A DNA stretch of 39,208 bases. It comes from an uncultured Planctomycetaceae bacterium (GTDB lineage: Bacteria; Planctomycetota; Planctomycetia; Pirellulales; Pirellulaceae). Below the pieces are notes generated by a model that saw only the letters and a list, made by a program, of their open reading frames with translations, had not been told where the DNA came from and searched no databases. The stretch is taken from NCBI GenBank assembly GCA_903927685.1, contig CAIYOB010001304.1, positions 1 through 39,208 of the forward strand, in the 5' to 3' direction. The translations under genes were made by a program, and so were the position numbers. Shown piece after piece: positions 10,651 through 39,208 of this stretch. Every line of letters begins with the position of its first letter. The stretch's first letter is position 1.

Positions 10651-12069
10651 TCAAGCGGCCGCGGCCTGTTTTCGGGCCTTGGCGCCTTTCTTTTTCGCCT
10701 TGGGGGCGACATCCTTCGGGGCGGTGTGGCCCTTGTCGGGAGCGAGCTGGTCGAGCACGGCCTGCAGACGTTGGCGAGCTGCGCCGGCGTCGGGCGACGC
10801 GTCGGCGGCCGTCGGCTTTTCGACGAACGGTGCGTCGCTCATGTCGAACAGCTCGCCGTGATTGTTCAGCTTCCAACCTGGCTCGCGGACGTACCAGTTC
10901 GGGCCGAGCTGCACGAAGATCCAATCCCGCGGCGTTCCTGCCTGGCCGCGCAGCTGCTTCGCAAAGCTCTTGCCGTCCTGCGTCACACCCGCGGGCAGTG
11001 GCGCGCCGGCCAGATCGGCAAACGTGGCGAACAAGTCGCTAAAGTCCACCAGGTTGCGCGTCGCCTGGCCCGCCGGCGTGGTCCCTTTCCAGCTGGCGAT
11101 CAAGGGCACGTGGGCGCCGCAATCCAGCATGCTGCCTTTCTGGCCGCTCAGCGCGCGGCCCTGGAGCGTCCGCGACTGGTGAGCCGTCCCGTTGTCGGCG
11201 CTGAACAGGATCAACGTCTTTTCGCGCAGGCCCAGCCGGTCGATGTGGGCCACCAGCTCGCCGACCTGCTTGTCCAAGTACGCCACGTTGTCCGCGTACA
11301 GTTGCTCGGGAGCGGTCTCGCCTGCCTGGGTGTCCGGCGTCCGCAGGATCGGACCGTGCACCAGGTGCGACGCATAGTAGAAGAAAAATGGCTGCTCGCG
11401 GTGCCGCTGAATGAAATCCAGGGCAAACTCGTGGCAGACGTCGGGATAGTAGATCTCCCGGCCGGCTTCGATCAACTCGCCGTTCTTCGTGTAGTTCGTC
11501 TTCCAGTAGTAGCCGCCCGCCGTCGGATCGGTGATGGATTCGTCAAAGCCCCAGTCGCCCGGCAACGCGCCCATCTGACGCCACTTCCCGCAATGCCCGG
11601 TCGCGTAGCCGGCCTGCTTCAGCGTTCTGGCGACCGACGGCTCGTCCGCCGGCGTCGGGCGACCCGCCGTCTGATTGGTCAGACCGCCGGTGCGGAAGCC
11701 GTACCGTCCGGTGATCAACAAGCAGCGCGTCGGTCCGCACAGCGGGGTGCAATAGGCATTCTCGAACCGCAGACCGTCACGGGCCAAGGCATCGATGTTC
11801 GGCGTCTTGAATGTGTCCGAACCAAAACAACTCACGCCATCCAACCCGTAGTCATCGGCCAGGATCAAGACGATGTTGGGGCGATCGCGAACCGCGGCGT
11901 TGTCGCCTTGATTCTCCGCACAGATCGACCATTCTGCGGGCGCGAGGATCAGAACCAGCGTCGCAAGTTTCGACAGTAGTTGGCCAGCCAAGTGCGGGAG
12001 GCACAGCGATTCGGGCGGATGCAAGCGAGCATTCATCGTGGAGCCTTTTGGTGTAGAGGTCGAGGGCAT
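10651..12069 (-). CDS. Secreted sulfatase (arylsulfatase A-like, Cys-type)
   Basis: A 472-residue sulfatase. The N-terminal metal motif NIVLILADDYG supplies two Asp ligands, and CGPTR (residues 111-115) is the C-x-P-x-R signature whose Cys becomes formylglycine; the flanking LLITGRYGFRTGG fits. A second ATG at 12036 would shorten the protein by 11 residues; both starts place a hydrophobic export signal (LATLVLILAPAEWSICA) before the mature domain. The later motif LFSADNGTAHQ contributes further metal and sulfate contacts. The C-terminus ends in a Lys/Ala-rich tail (KAKKKGAKARKQAAAA), an unusual basic extension. It would hydrolyse sulfate esters from polysaccharides. It lies upstream of nothing else but is downstream of the GH106 genes on the same strand, so it may act on the same glycan. 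Confidence 0.92.
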   Translation of the reverse strand: MPSTSTPKGSTMNARLHPPESLCLPHLAGQLLSKLATLVLILAPAEWSICAENQGDNAAVRDRPNIVLILADDYGLDGVSCFGSDTFKTPNIDALARDGLRFENAYCTPLCGPTRCLLITGRYGFRTGGLTNQTAGRPTPADEPSVARTLKQAGYATGHCGKWRQMGALPGDWGFDESITDPTAGGYYWKTNYTKNGELIEAGREIYYPDVCHEFALDFIQRHREQPFFFYYASHLVHGPILRTPDTQAGETAPEQLYADNVAYLDKQVGELVAHIDRLGLREKTLILFSADNGTAHQSRTLQGRALSGQKGSMLDCGAHVPLIASWKGTTPAGQATRNLVDFSDLFATFADLAGAPLPAGVTQDGKSFAKQLRGQAGTPRDWIFVQLGPNWYVREPGWKLNNHGELFDMSDAPFVEKPTAADASPDAGAARQRLQAVLDQLAPDKGHTAPKDVAPKAKKKGAKARKQAAAA

Positions 12070-12174: not shown

Positions 12175-15100
12175 TTACTTATGCTGCCGGATGGTAACCG
12201 GCCCTAGCAGACCGGAGGATGTCAGTTCGGCCGGCCGGCCGGCCTTCTGACGTTCCACGCACTGCTGGCAGCCATACATACCGCTGGTCAACGTGTCGTA
12301 GGTGCGGACATTCGTCACGGTCCGCCGCTGGTCCGGCGGCAGCGTCGCGTCGCCGATCAGCCGGTTGGGCCACAGATTGGCCACTTCGATCTCCAGTTCG
12401 TTCGGGCCGGACTGCAACGCGCCGCTGATCTCCACCTGCCACGGCGCAGTCCACACCACGCCCAGATCGCGGCCGTTCAGCCGGACGCGCGCGACGTTCT
12501 TGACCGTGCCGAGATCCAGGAAGATGGCGGATCGTGGCTGTTCGCTCGGAGCTGGAAACGTCGTCCGGTAGGCCGCGATGCCGGAAAAGTGCTTGATCGC
12601 CTCCTCCGGCCGCTTTGTCCAGTCATCCAACTGGTCGAAGACCACCTTCCCGCCTGTGCCCTGGTCCGGATAGAACCACTGTGGATCGAACTGTACCTGC
12701 CAGGGGCCGCCGATCTGCTGCAGCACTTCCTGCTCTGGAAAGTTCTTGGCGTCTGGTGCGTGTTTCGCGTCTTCCGTTCCCTCCCTGAACACGACGAACC
12801 AGCTCTGCCGCGGGGCGAATTGCAGCGGCACAAGCGTGCGGCCGGCTTCGTCGCGGCAATCCGGCAGGTCGCGAGTTGCGCCGGTGACGGCGTCCCACAG
12901 TTCCGGCTGCCGGCCGCGCACGCGGAACAGGACTCGGGCGGCAGCGTCCTGAGAACTCTGGTTGCTGACAAAGTAGATGTCCGTCTCGCCGCGACGGCGG
13001 TGGATCCAATCGAAACTGGACCCGGCCGAAGTCTCGCGGAACTCAACATCCGGCGCCAGGCCGTCCGCGGCCGCCACGGCGTCCCAGGGCCCTTCACGCA
13101 GTTTCGGGACCGAGCCGGCCAGCGTTTTCGGACCGACAACCGACACGCCGGCTTCCGCCAGCTCGTTGACCTTCTGCAGCGTTGCGGGCGACAGGACGGC
13201 GTCGGGCTGCTGGGGCAGCACCAGATAGCGATAGCTCATCCCGTCCGGCAGCGTCAGCCGGCCGTCGCGGGCTGAAACGCGGGTCAACAGCACTTCGGCG
13301 TTCAGCACGTCATAGTCGAAGCCGGCGGGCCGCTGGCTGGGCCGCGGCGGCAGGAAACCGGGAATCGCTTCGTCCTGCAGGTAGGCCACGTCGGCGACGA
13401 ACAAGCCCTGCCGCAACAGGTGCTGGCAGCGGGCCAGATACGTCAGCCATGCGCCGCTCATCGGCCACCACGTCAAGTGGCAGTCGAAGTGCGTGCCGAC
13501 ATGTGCCCACTGGAATCCGGGCCGGGCGTCCAACCGGGGCTGATGAACCCAGAAACACAGCACGTTCCGCGTCAGCCCTTCGCACAGGGCCGCGTCGCCG
13601 ATGTCCTTCATGCTCCACGGATCGTCCTTCCAGTCGCAGCCGAACGACGTATAAGCTTCGGCCTGGCAGTCCGGTTTTCCATAGATGTGCATGGCACAGG
13701 CCGCCTGCTTCAAACTGGGGTTGTGCTGGTGCGTGATCGGGCCGTCCGGCTCGCGGTTACGTTTCCAGAACTCGCCCATCGGCACGTCGTTGACCCCCAG
13801 GCACTGCAGGGCATCGATCCAATGCGTGAAGAACGGCCCGCCGGATTCCGGGTGGATGCCGCGCAGGCCGCCGGCGACGGTCAGTTCGCGCAGCCGGCCG
13901 TAGTAATTGGCCGCCACCAAGTCGGCCGCCGTGCGGCGATAGTCCTGCAGGAACCGCCGCGTCTCGGCGGCGCTGTCCACGGTCCGCCCCAAGACGGCCG
14001 GCAGCCAGGCCAGGGGATCATAGCCGCGCCGCCGCTGGAACTCGTCCCGCATCGCCGGCGTCCACGTCGGCTGGCCCAGTTCCCAGCTGTCGATGTGAAA
14101 GTACTGCAGCGACTTGCCGGCCAGCGGCCCGGCATCGGCGATCAGCTTGGCGCCCGTCTCGGCAAAATGCGCATCCATCGCCGCGGCGCTCATCGTGTCG
14201 ATCTCCAGGCCGGTGGGCCCCGAGCCGACGCATTTGATCGGATTGCCGTGCAGCGTGCAGCCGATCCGCAGCACCTGCCAGCTGCCTGCGGGGGCTTCCC
14301 AAGCGAGCCGCCCGTCTTGATCCATCATGCGGGTCACATCCACCGCGCGGCGGGCGTCCCACAGGAAGCGCGACGCGGGCTTCGGGTCCGCCAGGCGGTC
14401 CTTGGCCAGCAGGGCGATCTCCGCCACCTGCACATTCCAGTTTTCGCCGCGATAAGGCTGCGACGAGTGGAACAGAACCCGAAAATGCTTGGCCCGGGTT
14501 TCGTCGAACACGAGCGTCCGCTCGGCATGCGGTTCCAGCGTCGCCTGCAGGAGTGACCGAAACGTCGTGCCGTCGTCCGAGCACTGCACCTCGACATCTT
14601 TCGGGCCGCAGTCCGAATACGGCTTGAGGTAGACGCCCGCGGCCGGCCAGGGAGCGGCGAAGTCGAATTGCAGGAATTCCGGCTTCTGGGGCGTCGGGCC
14701 CATGCCGGGCTGGTCGCCGTTGGAGATCCAGCGCGACGCCTCGTCGCCGTCCTCCGCCAAGGCCGGGGCGTAGTCGCGATAGTGGGAACTGGCGACCAGC
14801 GTGCAACGGGCCAGCCCATCGTCCGGCACCGGCGCGGCCAGGACGGCGACATCGCGATAGTAGTCCTGCACGGCCTGCGGCTTGGGCAGCGTCAGAGTGA
14901 CTCGCCCCGGGCCTTGGACCGCGGCCTGGACCGCGACCAGATTCTTGGCCGCGTGCTCCGGCGTCACCCAGGGGCCGCCGCAGTTCCAGCCGCTGCACAG
15001 ATTCACGCCCAGCACGATCCCGCAGCGGTCGGCTTCGAGCACGGCATGCCGGTACAGTTCGCGCCATGCGGGGCTCATGAACGCCGGCCCGCGCGGAGCT

Positions 15101-15345
15101 TCTGCCCCGGCTTCGCCCGCATCGAACAGCAAGGCTCCGGCGATGCCCTGCTTCTTCATCTCCTCCAAGTCCCGAGTGATGCCATCCTGGCTGGCCGCTC
15201 CGTTGAGCCACCACCAATAGCACCAAGCCTTCGCCGAATCGGGAGGCGCGAGGAATTCCTGCCGCAGGGCATCCTCGGCTGCGCGGGAAACCGTGCCAAG
15301 CAGGAGGACCACGCACGCGGTGAGTAGCGTTGCAGATCGAATCAT
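12175..15345 (-). CDS. GH106-family glycoside hydrolase (alpha-L-rhamnosidase-like), copy A
   Basis: A 1056-residue secreted enzyme. The ATG at 15345 begins a signal peptide (MIRSATLLTACVVLLLGTVSRAAE); an upstream TTG at 15366 is less likely. The opening region PPDSAKAWCYWWWLNG, then GITRDLEEMKKQGIAGALLFD, is characteristic of GH106, as are FHIDSWELG and HPESGGPF, which hold the acidic residues expected to be catalytic. The C-terminal part contains a beta-sandwich (LGTVKNVARVRLNGRDLGVVW) ending NLWPNRLIGDATLPPDQRRT. Characterised GH106 enzymes remove L-rhamnose from pectin or flavonoid glycosides with inversion and calcium dependence. It is paralogous to the next gene (15453-18785); the two are tandem on the same strand with a 107-base gap. 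Confidence 0.9.
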   Translation of the reverse strand: MIRSATLLTACVVLLLGTVSRAAEDALRQEFLAPPDSAKAWCYWWWLNGAASQDGITRDLEEMKKQGIAGALLFDAGEAGAEAPRGPAFMSPAWRELYRHAVLEADRCGIVLGVNLCSGWNCGGPWVTPEHAAKNLVAVQAAVQGPGRVTLTLPKPQAVQDYYRDVAVLAAPVPDDGLARCTLVASSHYRDYAPALAEDGDEASRWISNGDQPGMGPTPQKPEFLQFDFAAPWPAAGVYLKPYSDCGPKDVEVQCSDDGTTFRSLLQATLEPHAERTLVFDETRAKHFRVLFHSSQPYRGENWNVQVAEIALLAKDRLADPKPASRFLWDARRAVDVTRMMDQDGRLAWEAPAGSWQVLRIGCTLHGNPIKCVGSGPTGLEIDTMSAAAMDAHFAETGAKLIADAGPLAGKSLQYFHIDSWELGQPTWTPAMRDEFQRRRGYDPLAWLPAVLGRTVDSAAETRRFLQDYRRTAADLVAANYYGRLRELTVAGGLRGIHPESGGPFFTHWIDALQCLGVNDVPMGEFWKRNREPDGPITHQHNPSLKQAACAMHIYGKPDCQAEAYTSFGCDWKDDPWSMKDIGDAALCEGLTRNVLCFWVHQPRLDARPGFQWAHVGTHFDCHLTWWPMSGAWLTYLARCQHLLRQGLFVADVAYLQDEAIPGFLPPRPSQRPAGFDYDVLNAEVLLTRVSARDGRLTLPDGMSYRYLVLPQQPDAVLSPATLQKVNELAEAGVSVVGPKTLAGSVPKLREGPWDAVAAADGLAPDVEFRETSAGSSFDWIHRRRGETDIYFVSNQSSQDAAARVLFRVRGRQPELWDAVTGATRDLPDCRDEAGRTLVPLQFAPRQSWFVVFREGTEDAKHAPDAKNFPEQEVLQQIGGPWQVQFDPQWFYPDQGTGGKVVFDQLDDWTKRPEEAIKHFSGIAAYRTTFPAPSEQPRSAIFLDLGTVKNVARVRLNGRDLGVVWTAPWQVEISGALQSGPNELEIEVANLWPNRLIGDATLPPDQRRTVTNVRTYDTLTSGMYGCQQCVERQKAGRPAELTSSGLLGPVTIRQHK

Positions 15346-15359
15346 GGCTGTCTCGTTTG

Positions 15360-15414
15360 ACGGCAAGCTGAAGGTGTCGGCGGAGGGAATACGCAGTCGC
15401 CTTCGGCTTGCCGT
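15360..15414. repeat. 15-bp inverted repeat between the two GH106 genes
   Basis: ACGGCAAGCTGAAGG (15360-15374) and CCTTCGGCTTGCCGT (15400-15414) are reverse complements with one mismatch, with a 25-base loop. On the reverse strand it lies 38 bases after the stop of GH106 copy B and just before the start of copy A, so it could be an attenuator or an RNA-processing hairpin. No U-run follows. Confidence 0.7.
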
Positions 15415-15452
15415 TCAACGCAGGCGCGCCGCGTATCCGACAGTGTGGGCGT

Positions 15453-18400
15453 TTACTCTGCGAGCTGCAAGGTCACTGGTCCCAGGAGGCCGGACGGCAG
15501 CAGGGGCGAGTCGGCGGTGAACTTGGTGATGTTGGTCGCCGTGCGCCGCTGGTCGGGCGGCAAGGCCGCGTCGCCGATCAAGCGATTCGGCCAGAAGTTC
15601 ACGACCTCGATCTCCAGCGAATTGCCTTCCGGCCGCACCGCCTGGGTCACCTCCACTCGCCACGGCGGGCACCATACGACCCCCAGGTTTTGGCCGTTCA
15701 AGCTCACCTCGGCCAACTCTTTGACCACGCCCAAGTCCAGGAACAGCGGCTTGCCGGCCGCCAAGGCCGCCTGGCCCTGCGGCGGCAGCGCGAAGGCTTG
15801 GCGGTACACGGCGGTGCCGGAGTAGTGCCGGATGCCTTCTTCCGGCCGTTGGGTCCAATCCTCCAGTCGCTCGAACGTCACCGTCGCCGGCCCGCCCCTG
15901 CGCGGGTCGAACGCAATCTGCCACGGTCCGGTGAGTTCCGTGGCCGTGGACAAGACCGCTGGATTCGTCGCGTGTGATGACGGGAAGGCGGTGGACAGCG
16001 GAGCGCGAAAGACAACGAATACGGAGCCATAAGCCGGCAGTTCCAGGGCCACGCTCGTCTGGCTGCCGGATACGGTGAGTACCGGAACGTCGCCGATCCG
16101 GCCGGAGACGGGGTCCCACAGTTCCGGCTGGCGTCCTGCCACACGGAATACGGCCCGAATGCTGGCACTGGTTGCGTCCTGGTTGCTGACGAAATAGATG
16201 TCCGCCTGCTCGGTGCGACGGTGGATGTAATCGATGGCCGGCGCCGGCGTCGGCTCCGCGGCTTGGCTCAGAAACTCCGCATCGGGCGGCACGCCGTCGG
16301 CCGCCAGAACTTCCCGCGCCGTCGAGCCCGAGATTACCCGGCCCCGGCCCACCGGGCGCACGGCCGCCGCTTGCTCTTCGGCGGGTCCCCAGAGTTCCGC
16401 CGCGATGGCCCGGACTTCGTCGTCGCAGCCCGGAAAACCCTCCAGGCCCTTGGCCGTCTGCGGTCGGGGGCCCAGCACCGTTGCCCCCGCCTGGACCAAC
16501 TGTTTGACCTTTCGCAAAACCGGCAGCGAGACGTTGGTGCGGTTCGGCAGGACCAGCAGCCGGTAGCTCATCCCGTCGGGCAGGACCAGACGGCCATCCT
16601 GAACCTCCATGCGCGTCAGCACGACCTCGCCGGTGGCCACGTCGTAGTCGTAACCTGGCAGAACCAGGGCGGGATCGGACTTCTTCAGCTGCGCAAAGTT
16701 CGGCACGTGGTCGCCGTAGTAGTAGCACGCGTCGGCGACGAAATGGCCCTGCTGGAGCAGGTATTGGCAGCGGTTCAGGTAGTCCAGGAACGCGTGCGAC
16801 TTGTCCCACCAGGTCGAGTTCGGATTGAAGTGGGTGCCGGCGAACATCTCCTGACCCGGCAGGCCCTGCTCCACCGGCGAACAAGTGACCAGCGTCCAGA
16901 ACAGCCGGTTCAGGCCCTCGCAGCAGGCCCGATCGAACGACGGCTTCAGATTGTCCCACAGGGTCTCTTGCCAGTGCGGCCCGATGGTGGTGAAGCCTTC
17001 CGCAGCCACCAAGCGCCGTCCATAGGTATGCGCGGCGGAAGCAGGCTGCTTGACGAAGAACCGGCTCTCGTCGCTGACCCGATGCCGCCACGACTTGGCC
17101 CAGAACTCGGACATCGGGATCTCGCTCAGGCCCAAGCACTGCAGCGAGTCGATTGGCGCCCCGTGCGGGCCACCCGACTCGGGGTGAATCCCCAGCCCAT
17201 GCCGCTGTGCCAGTTCCTGCATCACGCCGTAGTGGTTCGCCGCGATGCAGTCGCCGATCGTCCGGCGGAAATCGGCCAGGAAGCGATGGGTGGTTTCCCG
17301 AGTGTCGACGATCTTACCGGCCAACACCGGCAGGAAAGGCAGCAAGTCGTAACCGCGCCGCCGCCGGAACTCGTCGCGGAACCCGGGCGTCCAGTTCATG
17401 CCGCCGCACTCCCAGCTGTCCGTCTGGACGTACTTCCAGGTCTTGCCGACCGCCGGGCCGGCGTCGTCGATCAGCCGTTGCACGACCTCCTGCCAGTACC
17501 ACCGCAGGGCGTCCGCGTCCAGGTAGTCCAGCACCAGGCCGTTCCAGCCCTCGCTGGCTGTGCTGACCTGGGCCCCGGAACCTGTCGCTCCCAGCCGCAG
17601 CACGACCCAGTCGCCCGGCGGCGCCTGCCAGCGGAGCCGGCCGGCCGCGTCCATGTGGGCGGACAGATCGAGGATCTCGGCGCTGCGGCAGTCCTCCTCG
17701 CCGGGCACCGCAGGCACATCCTCCAGCAGCACGCTGCCGTCGGGCGCCGAGCCGCCTAACTCGTGCGCGGCCAGCTTATGTTCCAGCCGTTCAATCGGCC
17801 GATGGCGAGCCAGCAGTTCCCGGCCGTCGTCAGCCAGCAGCCCGATCTCGGCCACCTGGACATTCCGCGGGGCGGCAGCCGTACCGCGATCGTACGCCTG
17901 GTGGAACATGAAGCGAAATGCGGTGCCGCGCACGGCGTCGAAGCGAACCTTGGTTGGCGTGCCGTCCGGGCACGACAGGCTGCAGACCGTCTGCCAGCGG
18001 CCCTCGGCGTCGGCCGCTTGCACTTCGCCCTGCCGCGGGCCGTAGCCCGGCCGGCCGGAGATCCAAACGCCGCTGACGGCGAGCGGTTCGGGGAACGTGA
18101 CTTGGAGCCATTCCGGCCGCTGGGGCGACGGACCCTCGCCCGGCTTGAGACCGCCCGAGACCCAGAAGCTCGCCGCCACGCCGTCGACCGCCAGACGCGC
18201 CGGAAATTCGGTATGCGCTGAGCTGGCAGCGATCTCGTACGCCGGGTCTCGGCCGGGATCGCGGTAGGCCACCACGGCAATGTCCTGATACAAGTCGACT
18301 CGTCGCGGCGGCTCCGGCAAGTCCACCACGACCTCGCCCGGCCCGGCGATCACGGTCTGCGACCAGGTGACCAGCTTGGCCGCGCGGGCAGGGGCCACCA

Positions 18401-18785
18401 GCGGGCCGCCCAGGTTCCAGCCGCTCTGGATGTTCACGCTCAGTTCCAGCCCGACCCGTTCGGCTTCGCGCACGGCGTGCCGGAACAGCTCGCGCCACTC
18501 GGGGCTCAAGAACGCCGGGCCGGCCGACACCCGCCGGTTGCCATCCTGGTTGCTGCCGTCGGCGTCGAACAACAAGACGCCGCCAAACCCCTTGTCCCGC
18601 AGCTCTTCCAGGTCCCGGGTAATAGCCGCCGGGGTGACGTTCCCGTTCAGCCACCACCAGAAAGCACGCGTTCGGGCCTCCGGCGGCGGCTCGGCAAAAC
18701 CGCGGGCCAAATCGTCCTGGGCCGCAGCCCACGAAAGGCCGGGGACAACGAGCAGTACCAGGGTCAAGCGAGTGAAAGCCTGCAT
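15453..18785 (-). CDS. GH106-family glycoside hydrolase (alpha-L-rhamnosidase-like), copy B
   Basis: An 1110-residue secreted enzyme with a signal peptide (MQAFTRLTLVLLVVPGLSWAAAQ) and a GGAGA site upstream of the ATG at 18785. It parallels copy A throughout: TRAFWWWLNGNVTPAAITRDL, GFGGVLLFD, VQTDSWECGGMNWTPGFRDEF, HPESGGPHG, and the C-terminal LFLDLGVVKELAEVSLNGQNLGVVW and NFWPNRLIGDAALPPDQRRT. The mid-region carries a galactose-binding-like or carbohydrate-binding domain inserted before the DSWE motif, as in copy A. The two genes look like an old tandem duplication, as the central portions differ strongly while the ends remain alike. Two diverged copies suggest different linkages or chain positions of the same glycan. 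Confidence 0.9.
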   Translation of the reverse strand: MQAFTRLTLVLLVVPGLSWAAAQDDLARGFAEPPPEARTRAFWWWLNGNVTPAAITRDLEELRDKGFGGVLLFDADGSNQDGNRRVSAGPAFLSPEWRELFRHAVREAERVGLELSVNIQSGWNLGGPLVAPARAAKLVTWSQTVIAGPGEVVVDLPEPPRRVDLYQDIAVVAYRDPGRDPAYEIAASSAHTEFPARLAVDGVAASFWVSGGLKPGEGPSPQRPEWLQVTFPEPLAVSGVWISGRPGYGPRQGEVQAADAEGRWQTVCSLSCPDGTPTKVRFDAVRGTAFRFMFHQAYDRGTAAAPRNVQVAEIGLLADDGRELLARHRPIERLEHKLAAHELGGSAPDGSVLLEDVPAVPGEEDCRSAEILDLSAHMDAAGRLRWQAPPGDWVVLRLGATGSGAQVSTASEGWNGLVLDYLDADALRWYWQEVVQRLIDDAGPAVGKTWKYVQTDSWECGGMNWTPGFRDEFRRRRGYDLLPFLPVLAGKIVDTRETTHRFLADFRRTIGDCIAANHYGVMQELAQRHGLGIHPESGGPHGAPIDSLQCLGLSEIPMSEFWAKSWRHRVSDESRFFVKQPASAAHTYGRRLVAAEGFTTIGPHWQETLWDNLKPSFDRACCEGLNRLFWTLVTCSPVEQGLPGQEMFAGTHFNPNSTWWDKSHAFLDYLNRCQYLLQQGHFVADACYYYGDHVPNFAQLKKSDPALVLPGYDYDVATGEVVLTRMEVQDGRLVLPDGMSYRLLVLPNRTNVSLPVLRKVKQLVQAGATVLGPRPQTAKGLEGFPGCDDEVRAIAAELWGPAEEQAAAVRPVGRGRVISGSTAREVLAADGVPPDAEFLSQAAEPTPAPAIDYIHRRTEQADIYFVSNQDATSASIRAVFRVAGRQPELWDPVSGRIGDVPVLTVSGSQTSVALELPAYGSVFVVFRAPLSTAFPSSHATNPAVLSTATELTGPWQIAFDPRRGGPATVTFERLEDWTQRPEEGIRHYSGTAVYRQAFALPPQGQAALAAGKPLFLDLGVVKELAEVSLNGQNLGVVWCPPWRVEVTQAVRPEGNSLEIEVVNFWPNRLIGDAALPPDQRRTATNITKFTADSPLLPSGLLGPVTLQLAE

Positions 18786-20790: not shown

Positions 20791-23076
20791 CTATTTCCGT
20801 TTCACCAGCCAGAACCGATCCACCCAGACGTACTTGACATTGTCCGGGTTCTTCGCCGGCGCGGCCCACAGGTAGACGTCGCCGTGCAGTTTGGCGCTAC
20901 CGAGTTGGTACGTGTGGTAGTGATCGTCGGCGATCTCGGCACACGTGCCGGCGACTTGCCCGAGGCCCGCGCGGTTCTTGCTGTCGTAGATGCCGGCGCT
21001 GAAAGCCTGGCCGGCGCCGCCGGTCTTCTCGACGCGGATCGAGGCGTACACGTCGTACGTGGCGTCCGCCGCCAACGGCTTGCCCAACAGTTGGTGCTGG
21101 ACGGCCCATTCGTAATGGTTGCCCGGCATCCGGGCGGCCATCTTGTCGGACGCCAGGTCGTCCTTTTCCAGGGTCGCCCAAGTGCCTTCGCTGGCCAGGT
21201 TGAAGGTCGCGTCCTGCAAGTCGATCCACTGGTCGCGCGCCAGGGACTCGCAACCGGGCGGGGGCGACGAGCTGGTGCGGCCCATGCCGATCGTCCGGCG
21301 CTCGAATGTCGCCAGGGGACTGCCCTCGGAGATCAGCGTCACACCGGCGGCTTTGGCGACGTCGAGGAACGTCCGGCAATTCTGCACATAGTCCGCTGGA
21401 CCGGGCCAAGCCAGTTGCTCGCCCGCAGCTTGGTCCTGGAACTCGTACCACCGCGTGGCCCAGATGTAACGCAGGGGCAGGCGGGCCAGCTGGACGCGCG
21501 GCAACATGGCCGGCGCGTCTTTCACCGCTGCCTCGGCCTGGTCCAGCAGCCGTTCCGCCTTGGCCAGCATCGCCAGGTTCAAGAACTCGGCTCGCGCGGA
21601 ACTGAAGCAAGTCAGGTACGTCTTTTTCGATTCGGCCTCGTCGTGGATCAACTGGATGTACTCCAGGATCGGCGCGGCGGCCGAGCCGTAGTAGCCGTGG
21701 ACGAACTCGCGTACCAGGGCCTGGTCGTCCAGCTGCGGATTCCACAGCAGCTTGGCCAGCACCCAGGCTTTCAGTTCGGCGAATTCGGCCCCGAGTGAGT
21801 TGTAGCCGCCTTGCTCGAAGATGCCCCGCACGCCGTGTTCGACGAAGAAGCGGACGTTCGGCCCCAGCACGCGCAAATTGGGATGGGGCTGGATGTAGTG
21901 CGCAAAGTTCGTCGTGTAGTCCCAGATGTACATCCGCTGGCACAGCTTGGACCAGCCCCGGATGTCGTCGGCGAACTGCTGGTTGCTCGGGGCGGTCAGC
22001 GGACGAGAGAAATCGCATTCGATGCTGCACAGCCGGATAGTGACGTTCGGCAGCGGCTTGACATGCCGCGGAGGCTTGCGGGTGTACTGGTAGGCCAGGG
22101 TGTCGATGGCCACGTGCGGGTACTGCTTGCCGACTTCGGCCGCGACATAGTTGACCAGGTGCAACAGCGGCCCCGCCGGCGAGCCTTCTTCCTCTTCGAG
22201 CTTCTTGCAGGCGGCGCACAGGCAGTGGTTGTCGCAGTCGTTCTGCGAGACGGAAATGATCTGCGCGTGCGGGTCGTCGCGGAGGTGCGCCAGCACCTTG
22301 TCGGTGATCAGTTTTTTGACAGCTTCGTTGGTGACGCACACCTGGGCGTAGCCGTCGAGGCGTTTGCCGTTGACTTCGCTGAAGTACTCCGGATGCTCCT
22401 TGAAATACGTCTCCGGCGAGACCAGCCCGGCGAAGGTGTGGACGAAGAACGGACCGCCGTAGCGGATCTTGCCGCCGTGTTTTTCCTCCAGGCGTTCGGA
22501 ATTGCCGTTCGACTTGTTGCGGGCGGCCCAATCGCCGTCGAAGGCGTCGGCCCAGAAGGTCTCACGGTACTCCAGCGGCGGGATGTAGCGCACGTGTTGT
22601 TCGGGGACGGTCAGTTCCGGACGCTGGGGGATCGCGCTGACTTTGGAGGACCACCAGCGGCAGCCGACGACGTCTTCGAGGAACGTATAGACGGCGTACA
22701 ACGTGCCGCGCGGCCGATCGCCGGCCAGCAGCAGGTGTTCGCCGACGGATTCGATCACGATCCCGTCGGGCGCCAGGCCTGCCAGTTGCACGTTCGGCGC
22801 GAGTTGACTCGCCACGCGTCCCGGTCCGACCAGCAACAGGGGCCCGGCGGGCGGGTCGGCGGTGGTCTGGATCGGGAACGACGCCCCCGTCACTTGCTGG
22901 AGGAAGGTCGCCAGCTCCCGGGCCGCGTGCTGTTCCGCCGCGAGCGCGCTGGGATCGACGACGATCGAATAGCTGGTCTTGCCTCCGGCGGCCAATGGCA
23001 GGGGGGCGGCCGCAGCCGGCGTGGTGAGGGTGCCGGTCAAAAGAACGAGCAGGCAGAGAGGGGCGGGGCGAATCAT
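20791..23076 (-). CDS. Secreted DUF4838 protein with GH67-like N-terminal domain
   Basis: A 761-residue exported protein; AGGAGG lies nine bases before the ATG at 23076, which also begins the signal peptide (MIRPAPLCLLVLLTG). A frame extension to 23154 lacks support. Residues about 50-150 resemble the N-terminal domain of GH67 alpha-glucuronidases (EQHAARELATFLQQVTG, then GTLYAVYTFLEDVVGCRWW). The middle is DUF4838: EYFSEVNGKRLDGYAQVCVTN, ISVSQNDCDNHCLCAAC, IDTLAYQYTRKPPRHV and NVTIRLCSIECDFSRPL. The Cys-rich CDNHCLCAACKK segment might bind a metal or form disulfides. The C-terminal 150 residues look like a beta-sandwich binding domain. The reaction of DUF4838 proteins is not established to my knowledge; the neighbourhood points to polysaccharide breakdown. 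Confidence 0.85.
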   Translation of the reverse strand: MIRPAPLCLLVLLTGTLTTPAAAAPLPLAAGGKTSYSIVVDPSALAAEQHAARELATFLQQVTGASFPIQTTADPPAGPLLLVGPGRVASQLAPNVQLAGLAPDGIVIESVGEHLLLAGDRPRGTLYAVYTFLEDVVGCRWWSSKVSAIPQRPELTVPEQHVRYIPPLEYRETFWADAFDGDWAARNKSNGNSERLEEKHGGKIRYGGPFFVHTFAGLVSPETYFKEHPEYFSEVNGKRLDGYAQVCVTNEAVKKLITDKVLAHLRDDPHAQIISVSQNDCDNHCLCAACKKLEEEEGSPAGPLLHLVNYVAAEVGKQYPHVAIDTLAYQYTRKPPRHVKPLPNVTIRLCSIECDFSRPLTAPSNQQFADDIRGWSKLCQRMYIWDYTTNFAHYIQPHPNLRVLGPNVRFFVEHGVRGIFEQGGYNSLGAEFAELKAWVLAKLLWNPQLDDQALVREFVHGYYGSAAAPILEYIQLIHDEAESKKTYLTCFSSARAEFLNLAMLAKAERLLDQAEAAVKDAPAMLPRVQLARLPLRYIWATRWYEFQDQAAGEQLAWPGPADYVQNCRTFLDVAKAAGVTLISEGSPLATFERRTIGMGRTSSSPPPGCESLARDQWIDLQDATFNLASEGTWATLEKDDLASDKMAARMPGNHYEWAVQHQLLGKPLAADATYDVYASIRVEKTGGAGQAFSAGIYDSKNRAGLGQVAGTCAEIADDHYHTYQLGSAKLHGDVYLWAAPAKNPDNVKYVWVDRFWLVKRK

Positions 23077-23114
23077 CAGTGTGAACCTCCTGGGGTGCCT
23101 TGTGGAATTCTCCC

Positions 23115-23161
23115 AATATAGCCTCGGCGGCGACTTTTGTTGCCTAGGCATCATCTATAAT
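23115..23161. promoter_or_regulatory. Divergent promoter region (two -10-like boxes)
   Basis: On the plus strand TATAAT (23156-23161) lies 80 bases before the ATG at 23242. On the reverse strand TATATT (23120 to 23115) lies about 39 bases before the ATG at 23076. Both are close to consensus -10 elements in an otherwise GC-rich genome; matching -35 boxes are poor. Confidence 0.4.
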
Positions 23162-32551: not shown

Positions 32552-35500
32552 TCAGCGTTCGCCGACCCGCCCCGTGCCTTTGCGATAGGCGTCAAACAAC
32601 TCGCTGTACGCGGACGGAGGCTGGCTGCGGTCGCCCAGGTTACGTTCCGTCCGGCGCGTGTCCTGCCGGACGTCCGCACGCCGTGGATCGCGGGCGGCCG
32701 GACGGAGCCCCAGGCTCCGCAGGGCGTCGTCCAATTGCTGCTTGGCCCGTGGATCCTCGCTGGCGGCGCGTTTCAGGTCCGTCCAACGCCGGGCAAACTC
32801 CTGCAAGTCCTCGGGCGTCCAGCCCAGCTTTTTCAACAGCTCCTCGTCCGGGTTGTTTTGCTGGTCCTTCAGGTACTCCAAGACCATGTCCGTCGCTTTG
32901 CGGGCGTAGTCGAGGTTCGGCTGTTCGCCGTTCGGCACCTCGCCGCCCATGTCGCCGCCTTGCAGTTCGGCATTGCCCGGCGAGCCGCCGCCCAGCGGCA
33001 GGCCTTGGCCGCGGTCGGCGGGCGCGCCTTCGGTCGGCGACTTGGGCGCCGACGGGGCCGGTCCGCCTTGTCCCGACGGGTCTTGCGAGCCCGCGCCGGC
33101 GGTTCCCTCGGCGGACGGCCGCGACTTGGCGCCGGCGCCGGGAGCATCGCCCGCCGCGCCGGTCCGTTCCTGCGATTCCTGGCTGGTGCCCGGACGCTGG
33201 GCCAGATCGCCTTGACCGGACTCCTGCGCCGCGCCGGCGCCTTGGTCGCCGGGGCTGGTGCCGCCGGGCTGGTCGTTGCCGGGTTGCTGTCCGCCCTGAC
33301 CGCCGCCCTGCTCGCCGCCGCCGCTCTGGTTCCCGCCGGCGTCGCTCTGCGCGCTCCCGGCTTTCTTGCTGATGCTGGGCGATTGCGGCTCCTGGCTGGA
33401 ACTTGATTCGCCGCCGGAGGACGCTTGCTTCTGACTGGTGCCTTTGGGATTCTGTCCACCGGCCGAACCGCCTTGGCTCTGGTTGGGCTGGCCCGCGCCG
33501 GACTGGCCGCCTTCGCTCTGCCCCGGCTGCTTGGGCTGGCCGGACTTGGCTTGGCTCGGCTGAGGCGAGCCGCCCTGCTGCTCCGGCGGTCCCTGCGGCG
33601 GCGACGTCGAGCCGGTATCGCCCGCTTGCGGTTGGCCTCCGCCCTGGCTCTGGTCCGCGGGCTTCTCGCCGGGCGACGGCTTGGCGCCCCCGTCCTGCTG
33701 GCCGCTCGCGCCGGCCGGAGCATCTTCCGGCTTGGGCGTTTGCGGTTCATCCGGGTTGCCGCTGTCCCCAGCACCCGCGGCTGGTTGCGGCTGGCCGTTG
33801 GGCGCGGATTTCGACGGCTTGCCGGAGCCTGTAGCAGCTTCCTGCTGCGACGCTTCGCCGCCCTGCGCGTCGGACGGTTTCGGGCTGCCCTGGCCGCCCG
33901 TCTGCGCGTCGCTGCCGCCGGACGAAGTGCCCTCCTGCCCCTGATCCCGAGCGGCCTGCTGCATGTGCTGCATGGCTTTTTCAAAAGCCTCGCCGTCGTG
34001 CAGAGGTTCCGCCGACGGGTCCGCACCGCCTTGGCTGCCGACACCGCCTTCGCTGCCGCCGGACTCGGCGCCGTCGGCCGCACCGCCCTGGGTCCCGTCG
34101 GCGCCCGGTTGACCGGACGCGGAGTCATTGCCGCTCTGGCTGCCCTCCGTGCCGCTGGTACTGTCCGAATTGCCATCGCCCGGCATGTTGCCGCCGGACG
34201 GCGGGCTGTCGGGGTTGCTTTCACTGGCGGCCGAATCCGCGTTCTGCCCCGCGCCGCCCGATTGCCCGGACTGGCTGGCATCGCCGCTGCCCTGTTGGCC
34301 GCTGCCGGAACCGCCTTCGCCGCCGCCGCTGGGCTGCTTGGCCGCGCTGCCCTGTTCCGACTGGCCCTGCCCCGCCTCGGATTTCTCCTCGGGCGAGGGC
34401 GGCGGCTGAGCCGCTTGTGAATTCTGCGACTGCTGAGGCGATTGGCTGCCGGGAGGCGGCTTTTCGCCCCCGTTGTCCTTGGGCGCATCCGCAGCCGGCT
34501 TGCCGCCCGGTTCCTGTGGTTCGTCGGCGGGCGGGTCGGCGGGCGTTGGCGCGGCGGACCGCGTGACGACCAGCGTCAGTTCCCGCGACTTGACGACATT
34601 CGGTTCCGGCGAGCCGCTCCGGGGTGACGCGCGGTTGTCCTCGGCCACCACCCAGCACTTGGCTTCCGTGCCGGCACGCATGCCGTGCGATTGCGGCGCA
34701 AAGTCGAAACTGGCGAGTTCCTGGCCGCTGCGGCCGGCCGAGTCCTGCAGCAGATCCCGCTTCAGCACCTGCCGGCCGGCCGCGACAGCCTCCAGTCGGA
34801 TGGCCGTCAGGCCGAAATCGGGATCCATCGCTCGGACCTCGATCTTCTGCCAGCCGTCTTCCGGAATCTCGACGCGATCCTGCGTCGGCGTCAGGATCTC
34901 GACCTCCGGCGGCAGGTCGCGAAGGACTTCGAGCCGATGCAGCACGGGCTGCGGGTTGCGATGGCCGTCGGGCGTCGAGAACCGCAGCTGATACGTGCGA
35001 TGTTTCGGCTCCTGCCGCTGCTCGTCCATTTCGCAGACGAACGAGCACCAAGCTTCCTGCTCGCGAGACTGCATCTCGATCCGGTGCGGCGAGGTCGCCA
35101 AAGGGCCGCGGAGCGAACTGCCGGAGGCTGCGGTCGCCTCGGCATCTTGCGGCGGCGGATCGAATTCCAGGACCGCGGCCAAGATCGGCTGGTTGGTGCG
35201 AGCGCGAATGGTGACGCGCGTGCCCTCGACCGCCTTGACGTCGCCTTGCCGCTCGACGACCCGTTTGGGCAGCTTCGTGTACCCGGGATACTCGTACTCG
35301 ATCGATTCGACCAGGATCACCGGCGCCGGCACCACGCGCACGCGGAACGCCGCCGTGCGCGCGTCGCCCGCCTGGATCCAGTACACCACGTCACGCTGAA
35401 ACCCCTCGTCGCCGGGTGGCAGGCGGCATTCGTGGCGCAGGTTGGCCGCCCCGGGTTGCATGGCGACCGACTGTTGGCCCCGTTGTTCGTCGAGGGCCGT

Positions 35501-36244
35501 ATAGCAGAGCGTCACCGGTTCGTTCGGCCGCAGATCGTAACAGTCGGCCGAGACCGTGATCCGCTCGCCCTGGAACAACTCGACGTTTCCCGGCTGAACT
35601 TCCTCGATCCGCACCCGGCTGGGGCGTTCGATCTCGGCCCAGGGCGCCAGGATCCGGGCAATGCTCTGGAACGGACTCTTCGGAGCCAGGATCGTGTACG
35701 TGGCACAGACGGCCAGGATGCCGGCCAGCAGGTAGCCGATCCGAATCAGCCGCGAATGATCGACGGCTGTATCGACGGGAACGTGCGACAGGTCGGCGGC
35801 CGCCCGCTGCTCGAGCGCCTGGTAGACTCCCGCGCGAACCCCGGCGCGATCCGAGCGGAACAGGAGGAAGTTGATCAGACTGTTTTTCAGCGACGGATCA
35901 CTGTGCTCGATCGTCCGAGCCGCGAATAACGGATTGACACGGCCCAGCAGCACAGGCAGCAGCACACGCACCGAATACCAGCCGGAACCGCACGCGAGCA
36001 AGAGCAGCGCCGTCCAGCGTCCCGCCGGCCCCAGCGATAGGACCCAATGATCGACCACCGTTACAACCAGCAGAAAGCTCAGCACGCCCGCTCCGAGGAC
36101 CATCAGCGAGCTGCCAATGTCCACCCACTTGAGCTGCGCCCCTGTTTTCGCGACCTGCTGGTCGATAAATCGGTCATATCCCGCGCCATCGCCGGGCGCA
36201 ACCGGAGATCGCAGGGAATGGGTTGAAGGACTGCCGTAGGACAT
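32552..36244 (-). CDS. Large membrane protein with a huge low-complexity region (DUF4175-like)
   Basis: About 1230 residues. Three transmembrane segments are visible (about 41-64, 72-96 and 165-185), followed by a roughly 400-residue extracytoplasmic beta-rich part (RVRIEEVQPGNVELFQGERI, VESIEYEYPGYTKLP, LEVLRDLPPEVEILTP). Then about 540 residues are almost pure Gly, Ser, Gln, Pro, Ala and Glu, encoded by 32945-34560. A compact C-terminal domain (YARKATDMVLEYLKDQQ, LLKKLGWTPEDLQEFARRW) ends the protein. It resembles planctomycete DUF4175-like proteins, which often sit in MoxR/DUF58 clusters, though the MoxR gene here is 23 kb away. The ATG at 36244 is preferred; another at 36289 overlaps a TATAAT sequence. 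A cell-surface or envelope role is likely. Confidence 0.75.
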   Translation of the reverse strand: MSYGSPSTHSLRSPVAPGDGAGYDRFIDQQVAKTGAQLKWVDIGSSLMVLGAGVLSFLLVVTVVDHWVLSLGPAGRWTALLLLACGSGWYSVRVLLPVLLGRVNPLFAARTIEHSDPSLKNSLINFLLFRSDRAGVRAGVYQALEQRAAADLSHVPVDTAVDHSRLIRIGYLLAGILAVCATYTILAPKSPFQSIARILAPWAEIERPSRVRIEEVQPGNVELFQGERITVSADCYDLRPNEPVTLCYTALDEQRGQQSVAMQPGAANLRHECRLPPGDEGFQRDVVYWIQAGDARTAAFRVRVVPAPVILVESIEYEYPGYTKLPKRVVERQGDVKAVEGTRVTIRARTNQPILAAVLEFDPPPQDAEATAASGSSLRGPLATSPHRIEMQSREQEAWCSFVCEMDEQRQEPKHRTYQLRFSTPDGHRNPQPVLHRLEVLRDLPPEVEILTPTQDRVEIPEDGWQKIEVRAMDPDFGLTAIRLEAVAAGRQVLKRDLLQDSAGRSGQELASFDFAPQSHGMRAGTEAKCWVVAEDNRASPRSGSPEPNVVKSRELTLVVTRSAAPTPADPPADEPQEPGGKPAADAPKDNGGEKPPPGSQSPQQSQNSQAAQPPPSPEEKSEAGQGQSEQGSAAKQPSGGGEGGSGSGQQGSGDASQSGQSGGAGQNADSAASESNPDSPPSGGNMPGDGNSDSTSGTEGSQSGNDSASGQPGADGTQGGAADGAESGGSEGGVGSQGGADPSAEPLHDGEAFEKAMQHMQQAARDQGQEGTSSGGSDAQTGGQGSPKPSDAQGGEASQQEAATGSGKPSKSAPNGQPQPAAGAGDSGNPDEPQTPKPEDAPAGASGQQDGGAKPSPGEKPADQSQGGGQPQAGDTGSTSPPQGPPEQQGGSPQPSQAKSGQPKQPGQSEGGQSGAGQPNQSQGGSAGGQNPKGTSQKQASSGGESSSSQEPQSPSISKKAGSAQSDAGGNQSGGGEQGGGQGGQQPGNDQPGGTSPGDQGAGAAQESGQGDLAQRPGTSQESQERTGAAGDAPGAGAKSRPSAEGTAGAGSQDPSGQGGPAPSAPKSPTEGAPADRGQGLPLGGGSPGNAELQGGDMGGEVPNGEQPNLDYARKATDMVLEYLKDQQNNPDEELLKKLGWTPEDLQEFARRWTDLKRAASEDPRAKQQLDDALRSLGLRPAARDPRRADVRQDTRRTERNLGDRSQPPSAYSELFDAYRKGTGRVGER

Positions 36245-36287
36245 CGAACTCAGCCTGGAGCGTGGTTTCGTGGTTACATCCTGTTCC

Positions 36288-36293
36288 ATTATA
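36288..36293 (-). promoter_or_regulatory. Candidate -10 box (TATAAT) upstream of the large membrane protein gene
   Basis: On the reverse strand GGGTATAATGG lies in the 76-base gap after glpK. The ATG inside it would be a start codon at 36289; if it is a promoter, transcripts begin past that ATG and translation must start at 36244. No -35 at 17 bases is seen; a TTGACA lies 25 bases upstream. Confidence 0.3.
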
Positions 36294-36365: not shown

Positions 36366-37862
36366 TCAATCACGGTCTTCCCAATCCAGGGAGCGTTGCA
36401 CCGCACGGCTCCAGCGGGCGCAGCGCCGCTGCCGTTCCTCGGGGGCCATCTGAGGCCGGAATTCGCGGTCCAGCGCCCAATTCTTGGCGATGTCGTCCAG
36501 GCCGTTCCAGTAACCGACCGCCAGACCCGCCAGATACGCCGCGCCCAGTGCCGTCGTCTCCGCAACGACCGGGCGGCGGACCACCGTGTCCAGGATGTCC
36601 GCCTGGAACTGCATCAGCAAATTGTTCACCGACGCGCCGCCGTCCACCTTGAGCATGTCCAGCCGAATCCCCGCGTCGCGCTGCATCGCGTCCAGCAGGT
36701 CGCGGGTCTGGAGCGTCATGGACTCGAGCGCCGCTCGCGCCAAGTGCCCGGCCGTCGTGCCGCGGGTGACGCCAAAGATGGCGCCCCGCGCGTACGGATC
36801 CCAATGCGGAGCGCCCAGCCCCGTGAACGCGGGGACAATGACCACGCCGCCGCTGTCCGGCACGGAATTCGCCAACGCCTCGACCTCGCTCGAACTGCGG
36901 ATCAGTCCCAATCCGTCCCGCAACCATTGCACGACCGCGCCGGCGATAAAGACGGAGCCCTCCAGGCAGTAGGTGACTCGTCCGTCCAGCCCCCAGCCGA
37001 TCGTGGTCAATAGATTGTTGTCCGAGCGTTTCGGCTGGTCCCCCGTGTTCATCAGCATGAAACAGCCGGTGCCGTAGGTGTTCTTGGCTTCGCCCGGCGA
37101 GAAGCACGCCTGGCCGAATGTCGCCGCCTGCTGGTCCCCCGCATCGCCGCCGATCATGACCGGCGCGCCGAACCACTCCGCCGCCGTCTCGCCGAAATGG
37201 TGACTGGACGGCAGGACCTCGGGCAGCATGGCTCGCGGAATGTCCAAGATCCGCAACAGTTCGTCGTCCCAGTCCAGGGTGTGCAGATTGAAGATCAGCG
37301 TCCGGCTGGCATTGCTGACGTCGGTCACGTGCCGCCGGCCGCCGGTCAGTCGCCAGATCAAGAAGGAATCCACGGTGCCGAACAGCACCTCGCCGCGTTC
37401 GGCCCGCGCCCGCAAGCCGTCGATCCGGTCCAGCAGGTACTTGATCTTCGTGCCGGAGAAGTAGGCGTCGATCACCAGGCCCGTCTTGTCGCGGAACGTG
37501 GGCTCCAGGCCCGCGGCTTTCAGCCGTTCGCAGATCTCCGCACTGGCCCGGCTCTGCCAGACCATTGCGTTGGCCACCGGCTGGCCCGTGCCGCGGTCCC
37601 AGAGGATCGTGGTTTCCCGCTGGTTGGTGACTCCGACGGCCGCCAAATCCGCGGCCGAGATTCCGGCCGCCTCCAACGCCCGTCGGCCCACCGCCAACTG
37701 GGACGACCAGATGGCCTCGGGATCGTGCTCGACGTGTCCCGGTCGCGGCAGGATCTGCTCGAACTCCTCCTGGGCGGAACCGACGGCCCGGCCATCATGC
37801 CCGAACACAATCGCGCGACTGGAAGTGGTGCCTTGGTCGAGGCCGAGCACGTACCGGGGCAT
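36366..37862 (-). CDS. glpK: Glycerol kinase
   Basis: A 498-residue FGGY-family kinase that phosphorylates glycerol with ATP in the cytoplasm. GGAGAAATGCT precedes the ATG at 37862. The N-terminal [15 protein letters not shown], the substrate site [12 protein letters not shown], the [15 protein letters not shown] strand, [45 protein letters not shown] and [19 protein letters not shown] match glycerol kinase closely, including the family's usual length of about 500. No glpF or glpD gene is adjacent. The last residues diverge from the family. Confidence 0.96.
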
Positions 37863-37895: not shown

Positions 37896-38876
37896 CTATA
37901 GCCGAAATGCCGGCTGGGAACCAGCCCCCGCTAGGTCCAGCGTGGCGTCCAACGCCAGCCCACCCAGTTCCGGAATCGCCGCCAGCACCTGACGCACGGC
38001 GGCCACCGACAGGCTGTTGCCGACCAGTTGCCAGGCCTTGCGCAGCGGCAACTCGTCCGGCAAACGGAAGCCTGCGGGAAAACACAGCAGCCGCAGGATC
38101 TCGGTCGGCGAGAACCGCCGGACGCCGCGCGGGGTCGCCAGGTACGAGCCGCTACGGACGACGCTCGTGCCGTAGCTGGACGTAAAGCAGTGGGTTTCGG
38201 CGTGCGGGTCGGCGGCATCCACCACGTGGACCGCGCCGCGAAAGCGTTCGTGGAATTCGTCGGACATCCACAGGGTGTCTGCCGGCGCAGAGTCCAGGAT
38301 CTGCCGCACCGGGAACCGCCACGCCGCGGGCCGGGGGACTTCGGACCAGCTCGGACCAGCCTGATCGACGAGGCGCCCTGCTCGGCTGGCCACCAGATAG
38401 AACCGCGGCCGCCGATTGGGAATGCCCAGTTGTATCGGACACAGGATCTGCTCGCGGACTTGATATCCGCACGCGTCCAGCGTCGCGCGCAGCCGCTGGT
38501 GCGACTGCGAGCCCTGAAAGCCGGCGACGTTTTCCAGGCCGACGTACCGCGGCCGCAGTTCGGCGATCCGCTCGATCACCGCGAGCAGCCCTTGCGCGCG
38601 GTCGTCGTGAAGATCCCGTCGTCGTCCCCGGCTCGTGTACGGCTGGCACGGCGGTGACAGCCACCACAGCTCAGCGTTCAGGTCGCCGTACCAGGCTGCG
38701 GGCAAGCTCTCGATCGTCCGGACATGGAGCGGCGGCGACGGGGAATTCCGCCGGTACGCCGCCACAGCGACGGAATTGATGTCCACCGCAGCCACGACGT
38801 GAGCCCGATCGCCCACCGCTGCAGCGCAGCCACCGATGCCGCAAAACAACTCCAGCACGCGCAGACGGTGGGGCAT
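37896..38876 (-). CDS. Dnmt2-type (TRDMT1-like) cytosine-5 methyltransferase
   Basis: A 326-residue cytosine-C5 methyltransferase. Motif I is VLELFCGIGGC (7-17), the catalytic Cys77 lies in SPPCQP (74-79), motif VI is ENV (115-117) and motif VIII is RRPRFYLVA (155-163); the C-terminal segment is AWQLVGNSLSV. Three features point to Dnmt2 rather than a DNA methyltransferase: VVAAVDIN with VAVAAYRRN, the SPPCQPYTSRGRRRDLHDDR segment, and CFT at 230-232 in HCFTSSYG, the Dnmt2 hallmark, followed by FSPTEILRLLCFPAGF. Eukaryotic Dnmt2 methylates C38 of tRNA-Asp; a Geobacter homologue acts on tRNA-Glu. There is no long target-recognition domain and no restriction gene beside it. It lies nine bases downstream of a PIN-domain gene. 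Confidence 0.88.
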   Translation of the reverse strand: MPHRLRVLELFCGIGGCAAAVGDRAHVVAAVDINSVAVAAYRRNSPSPPLHVRTIESLPAAWYGDLNAELWWLSPPCQPYTSRGRRRDLHDDRAQGLLAVIERIAELRPRYVGLENVAGFQGSQSHQRLRATLDACGYQVREQILCPIQLGIPNRRPRFYLVASRAGRLVDQAGPSWSEVPRPAAWRFPVRQILDSAPADTLWMSDEFHERFRGAVHVVDAADPHAETHCFTSSYGTSVVRSGSYLATPRGVRRFSPTEILRLLCFPAGFRLPDELPLRKAWQLVGNSLSVAAVRQVLAAIPELGGLALDATLDLAGAGSQPAFRL

Positions 38877-38885
38877 GGGACGGCT

Positions 38886-39208
38886 CTAGGACGACCAGTC
38901 TGCGATCCGCAGATTCGGGATATCGCGAAAGTCGCGAACGTTGCGAGTGATCAGCGTACCGCCGTGCACGAGGGTAATCGCCGCGATTCGAAGGTCCATT
39001 TTCTTCGTGCCGAGCTTCAGGCTTCGCAGTTGCTCGTAAAGCTCCATCGCCGGTTCGTCAAAGGTGAGGATGCAAAAACGCCCCAGGAAGACGACACAAT
39101 CGGCCAACCGCTTGTAGGCGCGTGCCAGGCGTGCAGCCTCGTTAGCTCGCCGCAGCAGGGTGTACCACCCGGACAGGTGTTCTTCGACGGTGATCACGGT
39201 GGTCGCCA
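38886..39208 (-). CDS. PIN-domain (VapC-like) protein, N-terminus beyond the window
   Basis: The C-terminal roughly 107 residues of a PIN-domain protein; the frame runs off the right edge, and an ATG at 39197 lies inside the conserved TVITVEEHLSGW segment, so it is probably not the true start. The acidic residue in VEE, the Asp in KKMDLRIAAITL and the closing TRNVRDFRDIPNLRIADW are the VapC pattern; the first catalytic Asp should be in the missing part. VapC toxins are ribonucleases, and several cleave tRNA anticodon loops. The gene ends nine bases before the Dnmt2 start. An antitoxin, if present, would be outside the window. Confidence 0.8.
   Translation of the reverse strand, partial: ATTVITVEEHLSGWYTLLRRANEAARLARAYKRLADCVVFLGRFCILTFDEPAMELYEQLRSLKLGTKKMDLRIAAITLVHGGTLITRNVRDFRDIPNLRIADWSS

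Follow-up and report, generated by a model that had tools for sequence, protein, structure and literature searches.

A bacterial Dnmt2-type cytosine-5 methyltransferase gene in a Pirellulaceae genome fragment, with tRNA-Glu as a candidate substrate

In a 2011 paper, bacterial Dnmt2 is described only from Geobacter, and a CFT motif beside motif IX is given as the mark of the family (PMC3227630). Here we describe a gene of this kind in an uncultured Planctomycetaceae bacterium, found on contig CAIYOB010001304.1 (39,208 nucleotides; the window in what follows). The host is unlike that of the Geobacter sulfurreducens enzyme, a delta-proteobacterium. The window gene is a true bacterial Dnmt2 by family, fold and intact catalytic motifs, and it stands apart from DNA methyltransferases. 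Very probably, its product methylates C38 in the tRNA anticodon loop; for the lineage of the window, tRNA-Glu is the predicted substrate, at about an even chance.

The open reading frame (ORF) is complete from ATG through stop and corresponds to a full-length Dnmt2-type protein. The motifs quoted in the preliminary description of this DNA were located within it:

37896..38876, minus strand: Dnmt2-type cytosine-5 methyltransferase gene, 326 amino acids (ORF list, Pfam PF00145, PDB matches, structure model, tree)
38634..38657, minus strand: catalytic motif SPPCQPYT, residues 74-81, with nucleophile C77, invariant in relatives (motif match)
38526..38534, minus strand: ENV motif, residues 115-117, invariant in relatives (motif match)
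38403..38417, minus strand: NRRPR, residues 154-158, in which the invariant R156 and R158 form the RxR pair (motif match)
38181..38189, minus strand: CFT motif, residues 230-232 (the Dnmt2 marker of PMC3227630)

Residues C77, E115-N116-V117, R156, R158, C230 and F231 are invariant in alignments of 31 and of 54 bacterial relatives, and the catalytic set of Dnmt2 is present: the Cys of PPCQ (C77), the Glu of ENV (E115) and RxR (R156, R158). The enzyme would depend on S-adenosylmethionine and would act, on a DNA methyltransferase fold, through C77 as nucleophile together with E115 and R156/R158, methylating C5 of cytosine 38 in the anticodon loop. That C38 of tRNA is its target is, in all likelihood, correct, judging by homology to Dnmt2 enzymes that have been tested.

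The same ORF could instead encode an orphan chromosomal DNA cytosine-5 methyltransferase that has no restriction partner and resembles Dnmt2 by accident. It shares its Pfam family (PF00145, E 5.6e-31), fold and catalytic residues with M.HhaI and other type II DNA C5 methyltransferases, generic DNA methyltransferase models match it, and database names in the family are mostly those of DNA methylases. The curated dcm model TIGR00675, however, scores 88.2 bits, under its cut-off of 100.65, and Dnmt2 scores lie far above those of any DNA methyltransferase. The best PDB relatives were the Dnmt2 proteins of human (1g55, 9hgm; E 8.7e-43), the insect Spodoptera (4h0n; 8.5e-35), the fission yeast S. 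pombe (Pmt1, 6fdf; 7.3e-32) and Entamoeba (EhMeth, 3qv2; 4.2e-23), at 150 to 85 bits, with M.HhaI next at 47 bits (2.4e-11). The reverse control, a genuine DNA methyltransferase of a different planctomycetote (L017), displayed the opposite pattern, with 221 bits to M.HhaI and at most 57.6 bits to Dnmt2. The structure model of the window protein was confident (predicted local distance difference test 91.3, predicted template modelling score 0.90), and a Foldseek search with it returned Dnmt2 chains at ranks 1-9 and M.HhaI at rank 10. Eukaryotic Dnmt2 is therefore nearer to the window protein than M.HhaI by sequence and by structure. The CFT motif, present in the window protein and in 117 of the 120 listed matches of a eukaryotic Dnmt2 search, is absent from M.HhaI and the type II DNA C5 methyltransferases, which form the outgroup of the tree; the split from the four DNA methyltransferases there is supported at 100/100. 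An orphan DNA methyltransferase is thus an improbable reading, and the identification as a Dnmt2 homologue made in the preliminary description is borne out by the tree, the PDB matches and the structure comparison. With eukaryotic Dnmt2/TRDMT1 the protein has in common its fold, length, PPCQ, ENV, RxR and CFT motifs and the closing motifs. It differs in falling in a separate clade, in a tRNA preference that is likely not the same, and in the LWWLSPPC context and the SGSYL after CFT, which are typical of the bacterial clade.

Chance resemblance is excluded: of 7996 candidates scored, 1255 database proteins match the window protein at E<=1e-3, and identity to the closest relatives is 87-74% across 93-100% of the query. 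Among the 120 matches listed, CFT occurs in 113 and CFA in 6; the remaining one is an incomplete protein. With a bacterial profile built from 31 of the listed relatives, Dnmt2-type genes reached 253-489 bits, and none of the other C5 methyltransferases seen scored above 115 bits. In Planctomycetota, 4 of 392 genomes carry a Dnmt2-type gene at >=300 bits, seed genome G001 counted, and three more matches (95-115 bits) are DNA methyltransferases lacking CFT. Carriers number 11 of 196 in the planctomycete order of G004, which includes G005, titled Pirellulaceae (G004, G005, G009 and G286 were known beforehand), and 29 of 297 in a draw from Acidobacteriota, the phylum of G012 (G012 and G002 counted). 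A metagenome-assembled genome titled Acidimicrobiia (L002/G002) falls within this phylum draw of the Acidobacteria-titled G012. The 29 Acidobacteriota-draw carriers have CFI in 22 cases and CFT in 3, with 3 unmatched by motif and 1 unread; wherever members of the CFI group bear a name, it is Geothrix or Holophagaceae. These Geothrix/Holophagaceae proteins, labeled "DNA cytosine methyltransferase", are likewise Dnmt2-type by profile (253-276 bits) and by tree, although they share 37-39% identity with the window protein and mostly replace CFT by CFI (111 of the 120 listed; the other 9 unmatched by motif).

By profile and database matches, the bacterial Dnmt2 family comprises at least hundreds of proteins, and the view that Dnmt2 is patchy in a few bacteria, taken in the preliminary description, has to be given up. 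Most named members carry DNA methyltransferase labels in databases, which is probably systematic misannotation and is flagged here as such. No report of this family was found in literature listings on Dnmt2 in Planctomycetes, Geothrix, Acidobacteria 5-methylcytosine 38 or bacterial Dnmt2/TRDMT1, within a coverage that takes in few subscription journals. The known bacterial range of Dnmt2 would extend from Geobacter to a wide family that includes the culturable genus Geothrix, making the origin and job of Dnmt2 testable.

A tree was computed for 77 sequences: 47 from bacteria, 11 of the Holophagaceae type, 15 from eukaryotes (9 from animals, 3 from fission yeast and 3 of the Entamoeba type) and 4 DNA methyltransferases, with Geobacter Dnmt2 and plants absent. 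The window protein lies in a bacterial clade with support 98/89; supports are 100/98 for the Geothrix/Holophagaceae clade and 100/100 both for eukaryotic Dnmt2 and for DNA methyltransferases. The tree does not fix how the three Dnmt2 lineages branch, with bacteria plus eukaryotes at 95/67 and the alternatives at p 0.6 and 0.53. A eukaryotic source of the bacterial gene, an idea put forward for Geobacter in 2011 (PMC3227630), would agree with the patchy distribution in Planctomycetota, and nesting of the bacterial clade among eukaryotes is formally unrejected in the approximately unbiased (AU) test (p=0.148). That nested tree is nevertheless 32 log-likelihood units worse, all 15 eukaryotic sequences form one clade with the bacterial sequences outside it, and the bacteria make up two deep clades, one of them widespread in Holophagaceae/Geothrix. 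We regard such an origin as very unlikely; the bacterial copies do not give the impression of recent acquisition from eukaryotes. Of the phylogeny proposed in the preliminary description, run here without Geobacter, the placement outside DNA methyltransferases stands, whereas eukaryote-to-bacteria transfer is unsupported.

tRNA position 38 varies across the surveyed phyla. The housekeeping tRNA-Asp loop is CTGTCGA, that is G37-A38, in carriers G001, G004, G005, G009 and G286 (ARAGORN), and tRNA-Glu has C38 in G004, G005, G006 and G286 (ARAGORN) and in G001 and G009 (pattern search). The reverse holds in carriers G031, G204, G008 and G012, where tRNA-Asp has C38 and tRNA-Glu A38. The survey examined 32 of 49 known carriers, the remaining 17 all coming from the Acidobacteriota draw; both tRNAs were found in 24 of the 32, with C38 in tRNA-Glu only in 8, in tRNA-Asp only in 8, in both in 8 and in neither in 0. 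Position-38 bases were entered by hand, and where tRNA-Asp matches differed the housekeeping-looking copy was coded (G838 has a second, odd tRNA-Asp match with C; G032 was coded C; the sole match of G745, not tRNA-like, was excluded). A single RNA model was used, solely for locating tRNA-Asp; matches to a less strict tRNA pattern were for the most part due to chance, and it was set aside. Non-carriers were sampled from Planctomycetota (34), Acidobacteriota (21) and the G004 order (67), G038 with its 95-bit match being excluded; both tRNAs were found in 16, 16 and 47, and at least one of them had C38 in 6/16, 13/16 and 41/47, respectively. The contrast between carriers and non-carriers in Planctomycetota is nominally significant (p=0.007). 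It rests on 7 carriers, several of which came to light through their close kinship with the query, and order is a confounder.

Although C38 is described in the literature as an identity element of bacterial AspRS, many Planctomycetota have a tRNA-Asp that combines G37-A38 with a variable loop of the TGGTT type (L159-L161, L164, L166). A C38-type tRNA-Asp is found in arrays that hold over 20 tRNA genes each (L068 in G005:C334; L075/L176 in G001:C339), whereas the housekeeping copy in these genomes has A38.

In the lineage of the window, where the housekeeping tRNA-Asp would have G37-A38 and hence no C38, tRNA-Glu is the predicted substrate, because the housekeeping tRNA-Asp of relatives has A38 while their tRNA-Glu has C38. 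A C38 methylase that meets a tRNA-Asp without C38 must use another tRNA, and tRNA-Glu suggests itself from the case of Geobacter, whose Dnmt2 (GSU0227, also a bacterial Dnmt2) methylates tRNA-Glu according to published work. From the tRNA genes of relatives, we put the chance that tRNA-Glu is the main substrate at about even. Several points weigh against this account: the prediction was read from the genomes of relatives rather than from the host's own tRNA genes; the methylation activity of the window protein is itself predicted; tRNA-Val also has C38, commonly so in the surveyed genomes (ARAGORN); and the carrier contrast vanishes inside the G004 order (9/9 versus 41/47, p=0.57), because of which the phylum-level contrast is largely taxonomy. 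The enzyme could instead act mainly on a different C38 tRNA: tRNA-Val, or tRNA-Asp provided that the host carries C38 in it. C38 does occur in tRNA-Asp of 13 of the 56 non-carriers of the same order in which tRNA-Asp was found, the Planctomycetota carriers G031 and G204 have it in tRNA-Asp only, and human and Drosophila Dnmt2 are reported to act on tRNA-Val. Set against these are the Geobacter precedent and G001, the nearest genome relative found, whose housekeeping tRNA-Asp has A38; a different C38 tRNA is a serious contender, at somewhat below an even chance. No alignment column with conserved letters separates the 8 Glu-only from the 7 Asp-only enzymes.

More tentatively, the large bacterial family may be older than the eukaryotic one rather than derived from it, and may track whichever of tRNA-Asp and tRNA-Glu keeps C38, with repeated substrate swaps; we consider this possible rather than likely. 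The position-38 state changes at least 4 times on the tree. If the proposal is true, tRNA-Glu is used where the planctomycete tRNA-Asp became G37-A38 and tRNA-Asp where tRNA-Glu has A38, the swap known from one Geobacter enzyme happened repeatedly, and eukaryotic Dnmt2 came from bacteria. Genomes with C38 in only one of the two tRNAs are natural experiments on the enzyme's tRNA choice.

On the minus strand, the Dnmt2 gene lies between two other ORFs, in the order PIN/VapC-like ORF, Dnmt2, glpK:

38886..39206, minus strand: truncated VapC-like PIN ORF, directly upstream (NCBIfam NF047863, E 7.2e-10, 39.3 bits, below the cut-off of 140; no Pfam match)
36366..37862, minus strand: glycerol kinase gene glpK, next gene downstream (TIGR01311, 704.7 bits, cut-off 590)

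The PIN ORF ends 9 bases ahead of the Dnmt2 ATG. VapC-like PIN proteins are of a tRNA-cleaving type, here adjoining a tRNA methylase gene. A conserved neighbor or toxin-antitoxin pair was considered and rejected, as the PIN ORF is not beside Dnmt2 in G001 and no neighbor family recurs across lineages. A glpK homologue adjoins Dnmt2 in G001 too, and the recurring neighborhood is limited to glpK in these two loci and to synteny inside close groups. In the neighbor comparison, 6 of 23 loci dropped out for want of a Dnmt2 call there; 60 non-window neighbors lay within two genes, and 20 of them, from 13 related loci, were scanned. These 20 included 3 without a Pfam family, one integrase (L009) and one helicase (L012). 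No restriction endonuclease or restriction-modification gene was seen among the tested window neighbors (332 bases upstream in the window) or these 20, which speaks against a restriction-modification enzyme.

Two loci on viral contigs, with 36% identity over 88 residues, were rejected as carriers, being not Dnmt2. Phage (390) and plasmid (271) records matched at below 60% identity throughout, the ten best at 24-28% and 23-26%, respectively; no mobile carrier of Dnmt2 was seen among the viral contigs and these ten best phage and ten best plasmid matches, which are distant methyltransferases only.

Elsewhere in the window, positions 32552-36289 encode a 1245-amino-acid protein that matches no Pfam family and contains a long low-complexity stretch rich in Q/S/G/P, and positions 12175-18785 hold an adjacent pair of GH106 rhamnosidase genes. 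A sulfatase is encoded at 10651-12069 and a DUF4838 protein at 20791-23154.
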